Positions 40,123 through 45,127 of a stretch of DNA of 56,327 nucleotides are shown one piece after another. Origin of the DNA: a virus; IMG/VR virus record IMGVR_UViG_3300027889_000009, positions 1 to 56,327 of that record; one strand, written 5' to 3'. The notes below the pieces were generated by a model that was not told the DNA's origin, searched no databases, and saw nothing but the letters and a program-made list of their open reading frames with translations. The position numbers were made by a program, and so were the translations under genes. The number at the start of each line of letters is the position of its first letter. Position 1 is the stretch's first letter.

Positions 40123-40335
40123 TCAACCAGTCCGCCCCAGCGGTGTTTTCACCTTCTGCGACAACCGCCGGTGCAGGTCTTGCAGGTGCCACTCGTTGTC
40201 CAGGAACGATTGCAGGAACGTCGCAAGGTCTGCTGGCAGCAACTTCCCCGGTGCGTACTGCTGGTCAAGGTGGACCAGTGTGTCCAGTGTGTCCTGCAAG
40301 TTGGCCTTGAGTTCCTGTTCATTCACGACCGTCAC
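40123..40335 (-). CDS. Small helical protein (70 aa)
   Basis: GTG 40335. Helical throughout (QELKANLQDTLDTLVHLDQQ; ADLATFLQSFLDNEWHLQDL). One nucleotide separates it from the protease gene. Likely an accessory head protein; no family recognised. Confidence 0.55.
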   Translation of the reverse strand: MTVVNEQELKANLQDTLDTLVHLDQQYAPGKLLPADLATFLQSFLDNEWHLQDLHRRLSQKVKTPLGRTG

Positions 40336-40336
40336 C

Positions 40337-40371
40337 GTTTTGATACGCCACCTGTGTCAAACTGATACACA
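40337..40371. promoter_or_regulatory. Putative operator with TTTTGATACGCCAC motif
   Basis: A 14-nt motif TTTTGATACGCCAC recurs next to the portal start at 46850-46868. Here it continues as TGATAC-N7-GTGTCA, an imperfect inverted repeat, just downstream of a promoter. A shared repressor for late genes is a possibility. Confidence 0.45.
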
Positions 40372-40372
40372 C

Positions 40373-40402
40373 AAGATAGATTGGTGCGGCGTGTAAAGTC
40401 AA
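40373..40402 (-). promoter_or_regulatory. Late-gene promoter upstream of prohead protease operon
   Basis: On the minus strand TTGACT (40402-40397), 18-nt spacer, TATCTT (40378-40373), 38 nt before the first small gene. It would drive the head and tail structural operon. Confidence 0.55.
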
Positions 40403-40424
40403 GTGGGAAAATGTGAAGTGGCAG

Positions 40425-40646
40425 TCAGTTGCGTTCAAGAAGGTCGATGTAGAAGCCGTCTCTCCAGCAGATGGAGCTTCCTTTTCTTGTCACGCCGATG
40501 GTGCGCGGTTCCTTGTCAGGCTCGCACCAGACGGGCAAGAGCGTGGCCATGACTGGGAATTGTTCATCATGCAGTGCCACCCTGAAGCGGACGTGCATGC
40601 ACGGTTCGCGGAATAAAACGGTGAGCCACTGCCAGTTACATTCCAT
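40425..40646 (-). CDS. Small protein (73 aa)
   Basis: ATG 40646. Short alpha/beta protein (VRFRVALHDEQFPVMATLLP; ICWRDGFYIDLLERN). Overlaps the upstream gene by 11 nt. No family recognised. Confidence 0.5.
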   Translation of the reverse strand: MECNWQWLTVLFREPCMHVRFRVALHDEQFPVMATLLPVWCEPDKEPRTIGVTRKGSSICWRDGFYIDLLERN

Positions 40647-40998
40647 GTTGCTTCCACATTGACCGTGTCCACGTCTTCAGTTCAAACCGCAGCATACCAG
40701 CAGCGATGGCGGCTGCGAACGTCCTTGTCATGGCGTCCAGGTATTGGACGGCATCATCAAGGACGTTGAAGCCAACGCCGACGTGCCAATCTCCACCGCC
40801 TGCACCACGGTCAGATGCTTGATAGCCCATGTCGGCTATGTGTTTCTGGACGGAAGTGGACAGTCCGCCTTGCATGTCTATCAGTGCGGCGAAAGCGGCA
40901 TCGTTACCACCGAGCACTTGCATGGCATATTCCTTGGTGGTTTTGTCGCCACCATCGCCGCCGCTGCCCTTGGCATCAATCATCCACTTTGTCGGCAT
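40636..40998 (-). CDS. Phage protein (120 aa)
   Basis: Start taken at ATG 40998 (MPTKWMIDAKGSGGDGGDKT). Contains SVQKHIADMGYQASDRGAGG and DWHVGVGFNVLDDAVQYLDA. Overlaps the neighbour upstream by 23 nt. No family recognised. Confidence 0.5.
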   Translation of the reverse strand: MPTKWMIDAKGSGGDGGDKTTKEYAMQVLGGNDAAFAALIDMQGGLSTSVQKHIADMGYQASDRGAGGGDWHVGVGFNVLDDAVQYLDAMTRTFAAAIAAGMLRFELKTWTRSMWKQHGM

Positions 40999-41185
40999 CG
41001 CAAACTGTCCTGTTATCAAGCATTTTTTCGACGCGCTCGATGGCTCTTTCGTGCTGCAAAATCTGTTTGCTCATGAACTCATGGTATTTCCCATCGTGCT
41101 TGTGCAAGTCTTTGGTGTAGGCAGCACACAAGGCTTGCAGGTCGTTGAGATATTCGATGAGTGCTTGAGACGTAGCCTTATCCAT
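40976..41185 (-). CDS. Small helical protein (69 aa)
   Basis: ATG 41185. All-helical (DKATSQALIEYLNDLQALCA; HEFMSKQILQHERAIERVEK). Coupled to neighbours by short overlaps. Function unknown. Confidence 0.5.
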   Translation of the reverse strand: MDKATSQALIEYLNDLQALCAAYTKDLHKHDGKYHEFMSKQILQHERAIERVEKMLDNRTVCDADKVDD

Positions 41186-41441
41186 CAATCACTTCCTTTT
41201 CCGCCGCTTTCTCAAACCGCAACTCGCACCACAACCGCACCCGTCCTTCTTCCTCAGGTTCTTCCCCCATCGCCGCTTCAAACGTCCAGCGTCCACCGCG
41301 CTCCATCAAACCCTTGAGCACTTCACGGTAGGCGATGTGCAGCAGGCGGTTCTGGATGCCCTTGATTAGGTCAGGTGGTGGGTTCCGCATCGCTTCTTCT
41401 TCGACGCGGTACACTTTCGGTTCGGTGGTGGTGGTCGTCAT
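41178..41441 (-). CDS. Small protein (87 aa)
   Basis: ATG 41441 (MTTTTTEPKVYRVEEEAMRN). Helix LIKGIQNRLLHIAYREVLKG and an acidic C-terminus (EEPEEEGRVRLWCELRFEKA). Overlaps the upstream gene by 4 nt. Confidence 0.5.
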   Translation of the reverse strand: MTTTTTEPKVYRVEEEAMRNPPPDLIKGIQNRLLHIAYREVLKGLMERGGRWTFEAAMGEEPEEEGRVRLWCELRFEKAAEKEVIDG

Positions 41442-41782
41442 CGGACATACTCCAGTTTCTCGACGCCGTAATCTTCTCCATCCCCAAGTTGCGCCCGTAG
41501 TGCGTTCCAATCAGGATTCATTGTCACGAACCGATCAAGCACCGCTTCCATGAGCGTGGCCGCGTTCTTGCGCTTTGCGACCATGTATATCACGTTGGGG
41601 TTGAACACGCCAGCTGCAGGCGGCACAACCCGTATGCGTTCCATGTGGATGGTGTCCAGCGACTTCCATTTGCGCCGCAGCGTCTCAATGGCGTGGCCCG
41701 TGCCGATGCCCGTCAATACGCACCTTTGGTCTGGGCAACCGTGGTCGCGGAAGGTGCAAAGGTAGGCGTGGTCAGCAGGCAT
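41438..41782 (-). CDS. Phage protein (114 aa)
   Basis: ATG 41782 (MPADHAYLCTFRDHGCPDQR). His/Cys-containing N-terminus, then GIGTGHAIETLRRKWKSLDT and a helical C-terminus (ATLMEAVLDRFVTMNPDWNA). No family recognised. Confidence 0.5.
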   Translation of the reverse strand: MPADHAYLCTFRDHGCPDQRCVLTGIGTGHAIETLRRKWKSLDTIHMERIRVVPPAAGVFNPNVIYMVAKRKNAATLMEAVLDRFVTMNPDWNALRAQLGDGEDYGVEKLEYVR

Positions 41783-41845
41783 CGTTTTCGGTCCAAAAAA
41801 TATCGACCCAGAAACATGGCACAATGGCCGTGAAATTGAAGAAAA

Positions 41846-41873
41846 TTCTACTGGCACATTTGTGCCAGTAGAA
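41846..41873 (-). terminator. Terminator after small-gene operon
   Basis: A perfect 13-bp stem (TTCTACTGGCACA with its complement) and 2-nt spacer, followed on the minus strand by TTTTCTTC. It ends the transcript of the genes at 41881-42286. Confidence 0.75.
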
Positions 41874-41880
41874 AACGACG

Positions 41881-42072
41881 TTACTTCATCCCGTTGTTCG
41901 GCGTCCACGTCTTCGGTACAGCCGCGAACGTGTGGCACTTGGCGCAAGTATACACTTCGGATGCGATGGTGTACCCGGTAGTCGTCGCCACGGCGATGAC
42001 GTGGCGGGCGTAGTCCATGCGTGCCGAACAGTGGCAGTAGGGCACGTCGTTGACGACACGGTTGGTGGTCAC
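41881..42072 (-). CDS. Zn-binding mini-protein (63 aa)
   Basis: GTG 42072 is fused to the preceding stop (GTGA). Cys/His residues (VNDVPYCHCSARMDYARHVI and VYTCAKCHTFAAVPKTW) form a ribbon. It is the third gene of a coupled trio. Confidence 0.55.
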   Translation of the reverse strand: MTTNRVVNDVPYCHCSARMDYARHVIAVATTTGYTIASEVYTCAKCHTFAAVPKTWTPNNGMK

Positions 42073-42155
42073 GGTGTTGCTTCCTTTGCCGCTTCAAGGC
42101 AATGTTTTACTGCTTCTTGCCTTGTCATTTTCATCTGGCCAAGGAGATAAGTCAT
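42069..42155 (-). CDS. Very small helical peptide (28 aa)
   Basis: ATG 42155 overlaps the DUF3800-like stop by 4 nt and its own stop overlaps the next gene. The peptide TYLLGQMKMTRQEAVKHCLE is helical. Tight coupling on both sides supports translation; function unknown. Confidence 0.4.
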   Translation of the reverse strand: MTYLLGQMKMTRQEAVKHCLEAAKEATP

Positions 42156-42286
42156 CTTCGCTGGGCTATTTGGTTTTCGTACTGTTTCCAGTGTTCAGCT
42201 AAAATAGCAAGGCCAACAAGGACAAAATGGGATGTGCCGGTGTTCTCCTGAACACCTGACTCGTCGAGATAGCACATGTAATACAT
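42152..42286 (-). CDS. DUF3800-like N-terminal fragment (44 aa)
   Basis: ATG 42286 has AGGTGAT upstream. The product YYMCYLDESGVQENTGTSHF then VLVGLAILAEHWKQYENQIA matches only the first strand-loop-helix of DUF3800 proteins (YLDESG motif, RNase H-like fold), normally about 200 or more residues. The missing part suggests a truncated gene, or a mini-protein that keeps only the edge of the fold. Confidence 0.55.
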   Translation of the reverse strand: MYYMCYLDESGVQENTGTSHFVLVGLAILAEHWKQYENQIAQRR

Positions 42287-42318
42287 AAATCACCTACCCA
42301 TCCCACGCGGTTTTTCTC

Positions 42319-42346
42319 TTGACATTATGCCGTGAAGACCGATAAT
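42319..42346 (+). promoter_or_regulatory. Consensus promoter of the small RNA
   Basis: TTGACA (42319-42324), 16-nt spacer, GATAAT (42341-42346). The predicted start (42353-42355) coincides with the first base of the RNA's closing stem. No ribosome-binding site or frame follows. Confidence 0.8.
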
Positions 42347-42352
42347 TAAGAA

Positions 42353-42422
42353 ATGCGACTGGGCCGAGACGCAACGCGCCTCTTGCGGGACCGATACGGA
42401 CCCGCCCCAGACGCCTTTTTTT
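42353..42422 (+). ncRNA. Three-way-junction small RNA (~70 nt) with intrinsic terminator
   Basis: Closing stem P1 pairs GCG-A-CTGGG (42355-42363) with CCCAG-A-CGC (42406-42414) across an A-A mismatch. Inside, P2 is GAG-A-CGC/GCG-C-CTC with loop AAC (42366-42382) and P3 is GCGGG-A-CCG/CGG-A-CCCGC with loop ATA (42385-42405). Every arm has one internal 1x1 mismatch. Seven T's follow at 42416-42422. It has a consensus promoter and no coding capacity. I know no family that it matches. Confidence 0.75.
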
Positions 42423-42426
42423 CAAC

Positions 42427-42459
42427 CGAGCAATTCTACAAGCTCGAAACAGTTTTTTT
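42427..42459 (+). terminator. Second terminator behind the small RNA
   Basis: CGAGC/GCTCG hairpin, then AAACAG and seven T's (42453-42459). It backs up the RNA's own terminator and separates it from the opposing gene. Confidence 0.65.
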
Positions 42460-42535
42460 CAACACATTTCGCTGCTTGCATTTGCGATAAACGAAAAATC
42501 GGCAAATCCACGCCTTTCGCAGTTCATGTCCTTCA

Positions 42536-42916
42536 CTACCCGCCAGTCTGGTCCTGTCGCACCAACGATTTTTCCATAGCGTTGAGCGTGTTGACCAGCG
42601 TCTTGAAGTCTTGCGGCGTCATGGGCACAGGTACGCGGAGGACGGCAATGTCAAGATTGCTCGGTAGCGTAATGGGCAAATCACGGAAAGTCGTCACGCC
42701 AGCGACGGATTCAATCACCACTGGATTGCCTGAAGTTTGCACAGGAATTCCACCGGCTTGCGGCCATTTGGGCACTTGCCAGCTGTCTTTTACGCCGGGG
42801 CTTGCAGTATGCGTCATGCTGGCATTCAGATCAGCTTCTTGCTCACCTTTAGATAACTTTAACTTGTTTCCTTCAAGAAGTCCAGCGTATTCCAAGGTGT
42901 CCCTAAACCCAGTCAC
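42536..42916 (-). CDS. Unrecognised protein (126 aa)
   Basis: GTG 42916 starts the frame without an obvious ribosome-binding site; a perfect palindrome lies 4 nt upstream. The C-terminal half (NLDIAVLRVPVPMTPQDFKT then LVNTLNAMEKSLV) is a beta-strand plus helix unit. The sequence is less GC-rich than its neighbours, as are the RNA genes beside it. Confidence 0.5.
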   Translation of the reverse strand: MTGFRDTLEYAGLLEGNKLKLSKGEQEADLNASMTHTASPGVKDSWQVPKWPQAGGIPVQTSGNPVVIESVAGVTTFRDLPITLPSNLDIAVLRVPVPMTPQDFKTLVNTLNAMEKSLVRQDQTGG

Positions 42917-42920
42917 AAAT

Positions 42921-42946
42921 CAGGCGGGTGTTATAACACCCGCCTG
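42921..42946. terminator. Perfect 26-bp palindrome
   Basis: CAGGCGGGTGTTA and its exact complement abut between the 42536-42916 gene and the tRNA. It may serve as operator for the minus-strand gene, or as a hairpin protecting the tRNA precursor; no U-tract follows. Confidence 0.5.
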
Positions 42947-42953
42947 ACATGTG

Positions 42954-43024
42954 GTGGGTGTGGTGCAACGGTAGCACACCGGACTCTGATTCCGGAGATG
43001 CCAGTTCGACCCTGGTGGCCCACC
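42954..43024 (+). tRNA. tRNA-Gln (anticodon CTG)
   Basis: 71 nt with acceptor GTGGGTG/GGCCCAC (one G-G mismatch at 7-66), D arm GTGC/GCAC, anticodon stem CCGGA/TCCGG with loop CTCTGAT (CTG reads CAG, Gln), T stem GCCAG/CTGGT with TTCGACC. CCA is not encoded. The mismatch could be tolerated or mean that the ends are shifted by one base. Confidence 0.8.
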
Positions 43025-43032
43025 CCTGTTTG

Positions 43033-43063
43033 ACGCAGCACGTTAGACTCTAACGCTGCTGCG
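43033..43063. terminator. Hairpin after tRNA
   Basis: GCAGC-A-CGTTAGA pairs with TCTAACG-C-TGCTGC around one base, between the tRNA and a convergent gene. It lacks U-tracts but is the only structure in the gap. Confidence 0.45.
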
Positions 43064-43079
43064 CCCATTGCCAGCGCAC

Positions 43080-43265
43080 CTATACGTTACCATTTTTCGG
43101 CCTAGCGCGCGAAGATAAAAATGCCACGGACTTTCCCGATGCCTGCAACTCTTCCTTGCACGACTCGCGCAACCGTTCTCGCATCCATCCTGAGACGCTG
43201 AGACCGGCGAGCTGCGCCGCTTCGCCAAATGCCTGTTTTTCCAGGTTGTCAACGCGAAGCTGCAT
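43080..43265 (-). CDS. Ribbon-helix-helix regulator (61 aa)
   Basis: ATG 43265. The pattern MQLRVDNLEKQAFGEAAQLA, GLSVSGWMRERLRESCKEEL is that of small Arc/CopG proteins common on phages and plasmids. Its start overlaps the preceding gene by 17 nt. Confidence 0.65.
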   Translation of the reverse strand: MQLRVDNLEKQAFGEAAQLAGLSVSGWMRERLRESCKEELQASGKSVAFLSSRARPKNGNV

Positions 43266-43587
43266 CAACTCGCCCCTGGCTTTTCCCGTCGTCCCGATGG
43301 AGTGTGCTGTCAAGGCCCACGGAAAAGACAATGGCCCCGTCTAAATTGGGGTGGAAGAGCTGCGATGACACGTTGTTGATGCGAGCTGAGAACAACGCGC
43401 GTTTTTCGGTTGGCAGTTCCCGGAAAAGTTCCCAAAGCAAGTCGGATGCTGCCTGGAATTGAATGTTGATAACCATGTCCGTCACATCTCGATCGAGGTC
43501 TTCGGCTGGACAGCTGCATTTTACAGAACCTAACAGCTGGAGCAACCGCCATTTTGACTGATGGCCTTGTCTGCAATAAAACATCAT
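43249..43587 (-). CDS. Unrecognised protein upstream of RHH gene (112 aa)
   Basis: Starts ATG 43587 (or an internal ATG at 43479). N-terminal CRQGHQSKW and KCSCP could bind Zn; the C-terminal helix MVINIQFQAASDLLWELFRE and beta part (LFHPNLDGAIVFSVGLDSTL) are undetermined. Overlap with the RHH gene looks like toxin-antitoxin or regulator pairs, but there is no homology to support that. Confidence 0.45.
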   Translation of the reverse strand: MMFYCRQGHQSKWRLLQLLGSVKCSCPAEDLDRDVTDMVINIQFQAASDLLWELFRELPTEKRALFSARINNVSSQLFHPNLDGAIVFSVGLDSTLHRDDGKSQGRVDAASR

Positions 43588-43626
43588 GACGTGCAAGGAA
43601 TCAACCCGGCGTGCAATGCAACCCGC

Positions 43627-43806
43627 TCAAAAAGCACGGTTGCATTGCAAAGCCGCTCTGACGTATCCTTCTTTTTCTGCACACTTGTCAGAGCACCACT
43701 CCGTACCGCAGTTACCGTCGTTGCCACTGCACAAAACGTAGTCCCCGCAATCGGGGAACGTGCGACCGCAGTAGTTGCACGGATACCAGTCAACGCCCAT
43801 TGTCAT
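43627..43806 (-). CDS. Zn-finger mini-protein (59 aa)
   Basis: ATG 43806 (MTMGVDWYPCNYCGRTFPDC) continues with CGTEWCSDKCAEKEGY, a well-known phage pattern with about eight Cys. It probably binds two Zn ions. Overlaps the upstream stop by 4 nt. Confidence 0.65.
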   Translation of the reverse strand: MTMGVDWYPCNYCGRTFPDCGDYVLCSGNDGNCGTEWCSDKCAEKEGYVRAALQCNRAF

Positions 43807-44021
43807 TCTCCCATCGCCAGTGCCCACGCTTCAAGGATGGCGTCCGTCGAGCGCCACACAAGACCAACGTGACCGCAAACCGGGCATGCGTCGGTTGCCG
43901 CTGTCTTCGTCCTTTGCCATGTCTTGACATGGATGCCATCGCCAACCAGTGCGGCACAATTGGGGCATTGCCATGCGCTGTCGCATCCTGGGACGATAAG
44001 GGCGCCAAGGTTGTCGTTCAT
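43803..44021 (-). CDS. Zn-ribbon protein (72 aa)
   Basis: CPNCAALVGDGIHVKTWQRT then CPVCGHVGLVW give a CxxC/CxxC ribbon; the C-terminal helix is AILEAWALAMGE. ATG 44021 overlaps the upstream gene by 4 nt. Confidence 0.6.
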   Translation of the reverse strand: MNDNLGALIVPGCDSAWQCPNCAALVGDGIHVKTWQRTKTAATDACPVCGHVGLVWRSTDAILEAWALAMGE

Positions 44022-44206
44022 TCTTCACCGTTCCAATACCGCACAGCCTTTGAGAAGTCCTTGGGAAACACAAGTCGTCCTTTCGGTGGCGGCGTGATAC
44101 TGAGTACGCCCCTGTCAACGATTTCAGGTGGCCGCAGAGCGAATTGGTTCAACAGGTCAAGCCAGCTGGCATCCCAATCGACGGCAGGAGTGACGATTAT
44201 TGGCAT
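44018..44206 (-). CDS. Small protein (62 aa)
   Basis: ATG 44206 (MPIIVTPAVDWDASWLDLLN) then LSITPPPKGRLVFPKDFSKA. Start shares a base with the upstream stop. No family recognised. Confidence 0.5.
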   Translation of the reverse strand: MPIIVTPAVDWDASWLDLLNQFALRPPEIVDRGVLSITPPPKGRLVFPKDFSKAVRYWNGEE

Positions 44207-44595
44207 TACGGTTTCGTTCTCATCGCGTCCCTGAGACGCCTGTAGGCCATGCTGCGGTGCTCTTCCGCCGACATGGGTGCATCTTCCGCATCCTTCATGG
44301 CGGCGACGTGCATCTGCTGTATGGCGTAGATGCAGGCGTCGTGCAGCTTGTCGTAGTCGATGTCGGGATGGCCTTCGGTGTACTCTGCTGCCGTCATCGG
44401 TTTGTGCGGCACTGCATTGAATGGTGGTTTCATCGCTCGACTTTCCCGTTCGCGGTCCCGCGCATCCCAGACACGATTCACACCGGAAGCAACGTCCATG
44501 CACTCGCGGTGGTTGCCGCACATCTCGCAATTGCCCAGATAACGCATGGCAAGCGGCGGCTCGGTGGCATCCCAGCATTTCAGGCAGACGAACAT
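44206..44595 (-). CDS. Cys-rich phage protein (129 aa)
   Basis: ATG 44595 (MFVCLKCWDATEPPLAMRYL) with CEMCGNHRECMD: a CxxC pair and a second Cys pair near residue 25. The C-terminus is helical (KLHDACIYAIQQMHVAAMKD; AEEHRSMAYRRLRDAMRTKP). Function unknown. Confidence 0.55.
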   Translation of the reverse strand: MFVCLKCWDATEPPLAMRYLGNCEMCGNHRECMDVASGVNRVWDARDRERESRAMKPPFNAVPHKPMTAAEYTEGHPDIDYDKLHDACIYAIQQMHVAAMKDAEDAPMSAEEHRSMAYRRLRDAMRTKP

Positions 44596-44846
44596 CACCA
44601 ATCCCCTGCGAGCATGTGTGCATAGGATGCGTAAGCGATACCGACATACCCGCAACGTGGACATTGCCCGCTGAACCTTGGCCAACGCTTCCGCACATCG
44701 GCGGCGGTCAACCCTTCTGCCTGTTTATTGTCAAAGGTGACGCCGTGGTCGCAAGCAAGGTCAAGGGTGCCCACAAAGCGTTCGTTAACAAAGTTCTCGA
44801 CGTCTTCTGGTGATGCCGGTAGCGGCAGGTAGATTTTTTCTGTCAT
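44595..44846 (-). CDS. Rubredoxin-like Zn protein (83 aa)
   Basis: ATG 44846 (MTEKIYLPLPASPEDVENFV). The C-terminus GQCPRCGYVGIAYASYAHML, with an upstream Cys (LDLACDHGV), follows a common phage pattern ending AGDW. Probably a single-Zn protein. Confidence 0.6.
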   Translation of the reverse strand: MTEKIYLPLPASPEDVENFVNERFVGTLDLACDHGVTFDNKQAEGLTAADVRKRWPRFSGQCPRCGYVGIAYASYAHMLAGDW

Positions 44847-45127
44847 GTTTTGGGTCCGATGAAGCAAATCTCCACCATTGGCTTCGGCTCTTGGTATCGC
44901 AGTTTCCAGATGACAGTGCCGTCTGCCCTACGCCAGAGTTCCTTCTGGTACACGGCGTTTTTGTACGTCAACAATTCTTCGATGGCTTGCTCCAATCCGT
45001 TTGGGCGAACCGCAGGAAATGTTGGCACCATCATGGTGAACGAGTTTACGTTGCACCACACCTTGCTCCCGTGTAATGGGCCACCGACGCATTCCAGTTC
45101 TTCCATGTCCCTTGGTGATTGCATCAT
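44843..45127 (-). CDS. Phage protein (94 aa)
   Basis: ATG 45127 overlaps the portal stop by 4 nt. The N-terminal ECVGGPLHGSKV motif (GG-L-HG) is shared by many small phage proteins; the rest is YKNAVYQKELWRRADGTVIW and KLRYQEPKPMVEICFIG. Function unknown. Confidence 0.6.
   Translation of the reverse strand: MMQSPRDMEELECVGGPLHGSKVWCNVNSFTMMVPTFPAVRPNGLEQAIEELLTYKNAVYQKELWRRADGTVIWKLRYQEPKPMVEICFIGPKT

Follow-up and report, generated by a model that had tools for sequence, protein, structure and literature searches.

A small RNA within an accessory insertion of a phage head-gene region

The window is the whole stretch of DNA analysed here (56 kb), positions 1-56,327 of IMG/VR virus record IMGVR_UViG_3300027889_000009. 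PHROGs identifies its capsid and portal proteins; the closest relatives of the capsid are encoded on other viral contigs and in a planctomycete MAG (Phycisphaerales). A small RNA is encoded within the head-gene region, in the direction opposite to the head genes. Portal and capsid searches returned few relatives, and the closest ones (L002, L003) lack the insertion that holds the RNA: there a homologue of the 70-aa frame at 40123-40335 comes immediately after the portal gene. Hence, the RNA is not a feature of the head operon. BLAST of the RNA region against phage records gave no match. The features of the locus are:

40336-45123, no strand assigned: accessory insertion holding the RNA, tRNA-Gln and small genes
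42152-42286, minus strand: DUF3800 stub, 44 codons from ATG, N-terminal part only (PF12686, tblastn)
42319-42346, plus strand: sigma-70-type promoter TTGACA-N16-GATAAT, 11/12 consensus matches
42353-42422, plus strand: DUF3800-associated small RNA, ~70 nt, three-way junction and U-run end (fold, homologues, covariation)
42355-42363, plus strand: 5' strand of P1, GCGACUGGG, pairing with 42406-42414; a conserved 1x1 mismatch interrupts the stem
42366-42382, plus strand: hairpin P2 with a conserved 1x1 mismatch, the most conserved arm of the family
42385-42405, plus strand: hairpin P3, whose sequence varies within the family with strong covariation (both sides changed in 8/8 pairs)
42406-42422, plus strand: 3' strand of P1 and seven T's, the intrinsic terminator of the RNA (from sequence)
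42427-42459, plus strand: weak second hairpin and T-run, a doubtful terminator not flagged by the terminator scan
42954-43026, plus strand: tRNA-Gln (CTG), ~530 nt downstream of the RNA on the same strand

The 4.8-kb block at 40336-45123 separates the portal from the next head genes, and its small genes encode zinc-ribbon-like proteins and a NikA/DUF6290-like protein. An initial annotation had placed the RNA beside a tRNA-Gln in an AT-richer island. The tRNA gene is present, and GC content is indeed lower there, but only slightly (~49-51% versus 57% for the window). A 20-nt near-perfect inverted repeat with zero spacer (42914-42953) directly abuts the tRNA-Gln gene. Transfer RNA genes lie ~0.2-0.6 kb from the RNA in three phage lineages (Gln in the window; Arg and Ile at L035:8402-8576; Ser at L048:10276-10365). 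Elsewhere in the head region, a perfect 12-bp hairpin with T's after it (41846-41873, minus strand) is a strong terminator candidate.

The promoter outranks every other promoter-like site in a 9-kb region, and shuffling the 60 nt upstream never reproduced its score (0/200). Its -10 box places the probable 5' end of the RNA at 42353, seven bases past the promoter. The RNA folds into three arms, each with one 1x1 mismatch, at -29.1 kcal/mol (z -3.1; 0/200 shuffles equally stable). These arms are P1 (GCG-A-CUGGG / CCCAG-A-CGC), P2 (GAG-A-CGC AAC GCG-C-CUC) and P3 (GCGGG-A-CCG AUA CGG-A-CCCGC), and the seven T's at 42416-42422 end the RNA. The original proposal of a distinct small RNA that runs from its own promoter to its own terminator is thus well supported. 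The second terminator of that proposal fares less well: a hairpin and a T-run exist, but the stem has only 5 bp, the loop 10 nt, and the T-run lies 6 nt away. The region is also not free of reading frames, as had been claimed, since a 45-codon ATG frame (42353-42490) crosses the RNA. We rejected this 45-aa frame as a gene: homologues do not keep it, and in L023 it stops after four codons.

Homologues and conserved structure

At the gathering threshold and at E 10, no Rfam model matches the window RNA. A covariance model built from the window sequence alone (R1) was run on 392 planctomycete genomes and gave four full-model hits (E 7.6e-16 to 1.8e-7). It matches both strands because the element is nearly palindromic; the plus strand was chosen for the promoter and the T-run. 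All four planctomycete hits adjoin the start of a DUF3800 gene. An independent search of the same genomes with a DUF3800 protein identified six with close homologues, the best four being the genomes with RNA hits. The two more distant DUF3800 genes have other structured sequences just upstream, terminator-like and different from the window RNA (L021:2406-2500, minus strand; L022:1400-1500). The L021 sequence scores 32.8 bits for DUF3800-VI, against a threshold of 35. Further DUF3800 RNA subfamilies therefore probably exist.

A protein search of viral contigs yielded six further DUF3800 loci, five of them closely alike (L023-L025, L027, L028), and the RNA is present in 6/6. A Leptospira weilii plasmid carries an identical RNA with DUF3800. 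We also scanned viral contigs for the RNA pattern without protein information, which returned 20 contigs. Those confirmed by the model all adjoin DUF3800 and include the new loci L034, L035, L042 and L048/L052. Exact arm patterns had no match in viral contigs, because P3 varies. A model built from 13 sequences (R2) recovered the same four planctomycete loci, with no fifth or unlinked copy. Overall, every model-confirmed homologue adjoins a DUF3800 start, the window RNA adjoins a DUF3800 stub, and the loci are spread across planctomycetes, Leptospira and diverse phages.

Two groups of candidates were discarded as chance matches. Weak model hits L014-L016 (E 4e-4 to 7e-3) have no DUF3800 nearby and were lost with R2. 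Pattern hits L036-L038, L040, L041, L044, L045, L049 and L051 lack both DUF3800 and a significant model hit.

The distribution of homologues bears on the functions first suggested for this RNA. An antisense RNA to the head operon, an antiterminator like HK022 put or a packaging RNA would suit its position inside the head region and opposite to the head genes. However, the homologues lie at DUF3800 genes of bacterial genomes, plasmids and unrelated phages rather than at head genes, and the nearest phage relatives lack the RNA. A U-run terminator directly after the RNA is also at odds with a put-like antiterminator. These functions are unsupported, and we regard them as highly improbable.

We aligned 13 distinct RNAs from the window, planctomycete, plasmid and phage loci. 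Paired cells amount to 93.3% versus 80.9% in shuffles, a comparison that somewhat favours the tested structure since the alignment includes the sequence from which it was read. Both sides have changed in 11 pairs, and 0/500 shuffles reach any of the measures. When partners are slid by one to three columns, pairing falls to 37-43%. All eight pairs of P3 vary, though the sequences with these changes bear no relation to the window in that arm. P1 and P2 are mostly fixed in sequence. The homologue search called for in the initial annotation thus returned both strong hits and compensating changes. At two 1x1 mismatches (columns 5-60 and 16-26), 25/26 cells lack a pair; the opposed bases are U-U in most members and A-A, A-C or U-C in others. 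T-runs like that of the window follow the RNA in ~9/13 homologues and are missing in the Leptospira lineage and L034. Hence, in these the DUF3800 mRNA may include the RNA.

The DUF3800 RNA motifs are reportedly described in Weinberg 2017, and their role is still open in the literature found since that 2017 description. The motifs are named for their association with DUF3800 genes (PMC10910872), and those in Rfam include DUF3800-I (RF02969) and DUF3800-IX (RF02968) (PMC11701678). The two hallmarks of DUF3800 RNAs, DUF3800 adjacency and a covariation-supported structure, were both found in the 13 RNAs. No DUF3800 Rfam model scores above its gathering threshold on any new RNA, whereas DUF3800-VI (RF02915) itself was detected in L031-L033; R2 in turn finds no DUF3800-VI loci. 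Covariation, DUF3800 linkage and the lack of an Rfam match argue strongly, from sequence comparison, that these RNAs form a new subfamily within the DUF3800-associated RNAs already known. The RNA was "unknown", as first described, in that no Rfam model detects its subfamily, but it belongs to the DUF3800 RNA motifs. The adjacent truncated DUF3800 gene had been correctly reported, although its importance as the key to the RNA's identity was overlooked.

DUF3800-VI was found here on plasmids and beside more distantly related DUF3800 genes; Pseudomonas phage Marin has it too. In this phage, the RNA (L033:1616-1671) precedes a "hypothetical" protein matching DUF3800, and the locus lies downstream of a CI-like repressor.

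Orientation of the RNA and DUF3800 stubs

At same-strand loci, the DUF3800 start codon lies 16-36 nt beyond the end of P1, and most of this gap is T-run and ribosome-binding region. This leaves no room for a separate promoter; hence DUF3800 would be read from the RNA promoter through the terminator. The RNA has a strong promoter upstream in the window, L010, L011, L012, L013 and L048, while in several AT-rich members the promoter match is no better than in shuffles. A terminator lies between the upstream RNA and DUF3800 in L010, L012, L013, L026 and L048. The promoter-RNA-T-run unit is directed away from DUF3800 in the window and in L011, yet in L010 a very similar RNA is directed towards it. 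This flip fits a trans-acting RNA and is hard to reconcile with a cis leader.

A leader or attenuator that stops transcription before DUF3800 and sets its level, with no action in trans, would account for an RNA that lies 16-36 nt ahead of the start codon on the same strand, and for the T-run at most loci. Rfam types DUF3800-VI as Cis-reg, in line with such a role. Apart from the unit facing away in the window and L011, however, three phages retain the RNA without a gene to regulate, and the conserved mismatches and P2 sequence exceed what a terminator needs. We therefore consider a purely cis-acting leader unlikely.

The window stub starts 66 nt from the RNA, on the other strand. It scores 20.5 bits against PF12686 (cut-off 21), and a tblastn alignment at 42280-42161 shows 55% identity to the L011 DUF3800 (E 1.6e-10), covering residues 2-41. 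No other part of the gene was found by tblastn in the 56-kb window. Two further phage contigs, one with HNH endonuclease, methyltransferase and tRNA genes (L035) and one with helicases and a primase (L042), also carry an intact RNA, with a DUF3800 frame after it in which residues 1-28 are all that is left:

L035:8779-8904, minus strand: DUF3800 stub, homology to residue 28
L042:4204-4335, plus strand: DUF3800 stub, homology to residue 28

Neither contig contains other DUF3800 parts. An RNA with a stub thus occurs in 3 of ~7 viral lineages (window, L035, L042), on unrelated contigs. The stub-associated RNAs score 80.5, 76.4 and 75.3 bits, within or just above the range of planctomycete RNAs with full DUF3800 (64.3-79.1 bits). 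We found no mention of this orphan state in the available literature on DUF3800 RNAs.

All three break points fall at or before codon 41. If breaks were uniform over ~297 codons, the chance would be ~0.003, for a pattern noticed post hoc. As the RNA-led scan is independent of the remaining gene length, the similar break points are not a search artefact. Those of L035 and L042 agree exactly (residue 28), and we found no explanation for the clustering.

The RNA could simply be debris. The phage would have acquired the DUF3800-RNA module and lost the gene by deletion, leaving an RNA that is undecayed and functionless here. The insertion is missing from relatives, the partner gene is broken and only a single copy of the window phage is known, all of which fits a passenger relic; retention of the RNA could be recent and neutral. 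On the other hand, the promoter, all three arms and the T-run are intact, and the same RNA and stub state recurs in two other unrelated phage contigs. The L042 RNA still has 51% GC within a phage locus of 31% GC. We take the relic seriously as a possibility, though not as the probable one.

It is also conceivable that the RNA and the first DUF3800 codons form the left end of a transposon-like unit, the stubs being non-autonomous copies. Closely similar break positions (residue 28 in L035 and L042, ~41 in the window), an RNase H fold like that of many transposases and loci scattered over planctomycetes, Leptospira and diverse phages would agree with this. However, no common right end was seen by eye after stubs or full genes. 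DUF3800 codons 1-28 show no excess third-base identity, which argues against a hidden DNA or RNA signal there as the cause of the stubs. Every RNA has a terminator of its own and lacks a guide-like extension. Such an element end is improbable in our view.

Proposed role and comparison with known systems

DUF3800 proteins have an RNase H fold and are putative nucleases (PMC10910872, PMC12669027). We take the fold from these papers; an AlphaFold DUF3800 model from six sequences was poor (pLDDT 60) and was not used. Defence-system models gave no match for two proteins, and the L011 DUF3800 (L011:550-1431) weakly matched PADLOC candidate PDC-M04A (E 1.5e-5) over its N-terminal residues 2-53.

The reading we favour, and think rather probable, is that the ~70-nt RNA, self-promoted and self-terminated, is a trans partner of the DUF3800 protein and in phages acts alone on foreign DUF3800. 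The RNA would bind the protein in trans and either hold it inactive or specify it, resembling the antitoxin of a type III toxin-antitoxin pair, and read-through of the RNA's terminator would yield the protein. In the window phage the stub lacks a nuclease body whereas the RNA is whole, which would leave the RNA as the only part able to act. An RNA kept without its own protein can act only on DUF3800 proteins made by others, and its target would be one from the host or another element. More tentatively, we suggest that phages of different lineages keep the RNA and drop the nuclease after 28-41 codons, and that the orphan RNA, expressed during infection, may serve as a decoy or antitoxin that disarms host DUF3800. 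A decoy, which the initial annotation also lists, is a candidate function and the most interesting of these readings.

The subfamily offers a compact covarying RNA with a conserved P2, two 1x1 mismatches and a defined protein partner. It also includes natural loci with flipped or orphan RNAs; the flip, as an argument for action in trans, makes the RNP/antitoxin hypothesis directly testable. Should orphan copies shield phages, DUF3800 would count as a defence nuclease, and the RNAs as a new class of RNA-based anti-defence.

Among known RNAs, DUF3800-VI is the nearest counterpart. Like the new RNA, it lies just upstream of DUF3800 and has a closing stem and two hairpins. However, the two share no detectable sequence similarity and differ in stem lengths, and neither model finds the other's loci. 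The new RNA is set apart from DUF3800-VI by a 1x1 mismatch that divides P1, by a hairpin of the form GAG-N-CGC/GCG-N-CUC, by a promoter of its own and, usually, by a U-run. DUF3800-I and DUF3800-IX are likewise structured and DUF3800-associated, but the new RNA matches no Rfam model at E 10. The omega RNAs of TnpB/IscB are also encoded beside an RNase H/RuvC-type protein on mobile DNA; the new RNA differs in its terminator end, its lack of a guide extension and the absence of visible transposon ends. Type III toxin-antitoxin loci (ToxIN) resemble part of the loci of the new family, in which promoter, RNA, terminator and putative nuclease gene make up a small unit; the likeness does not extend to L034 and Leptospira, which have no T-run, or to the divergent arrangement of the window and L011. 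ToxIN combines pseudoknot repeats with a ToxN-type nuclease, whereas the new family pairs DUF3800 with a single-copy RNA, a nested three-way junction and putative antitoxin, whose family shows no tandem pseudoknot repeats. A phage-encoded mimic of an RNA antitoxin, pseudo-ToxI, is documented as a means of escape (PMC3475682), and under the decoy reading the orphan RNAs would be a comparable RNA-only counter-defence.
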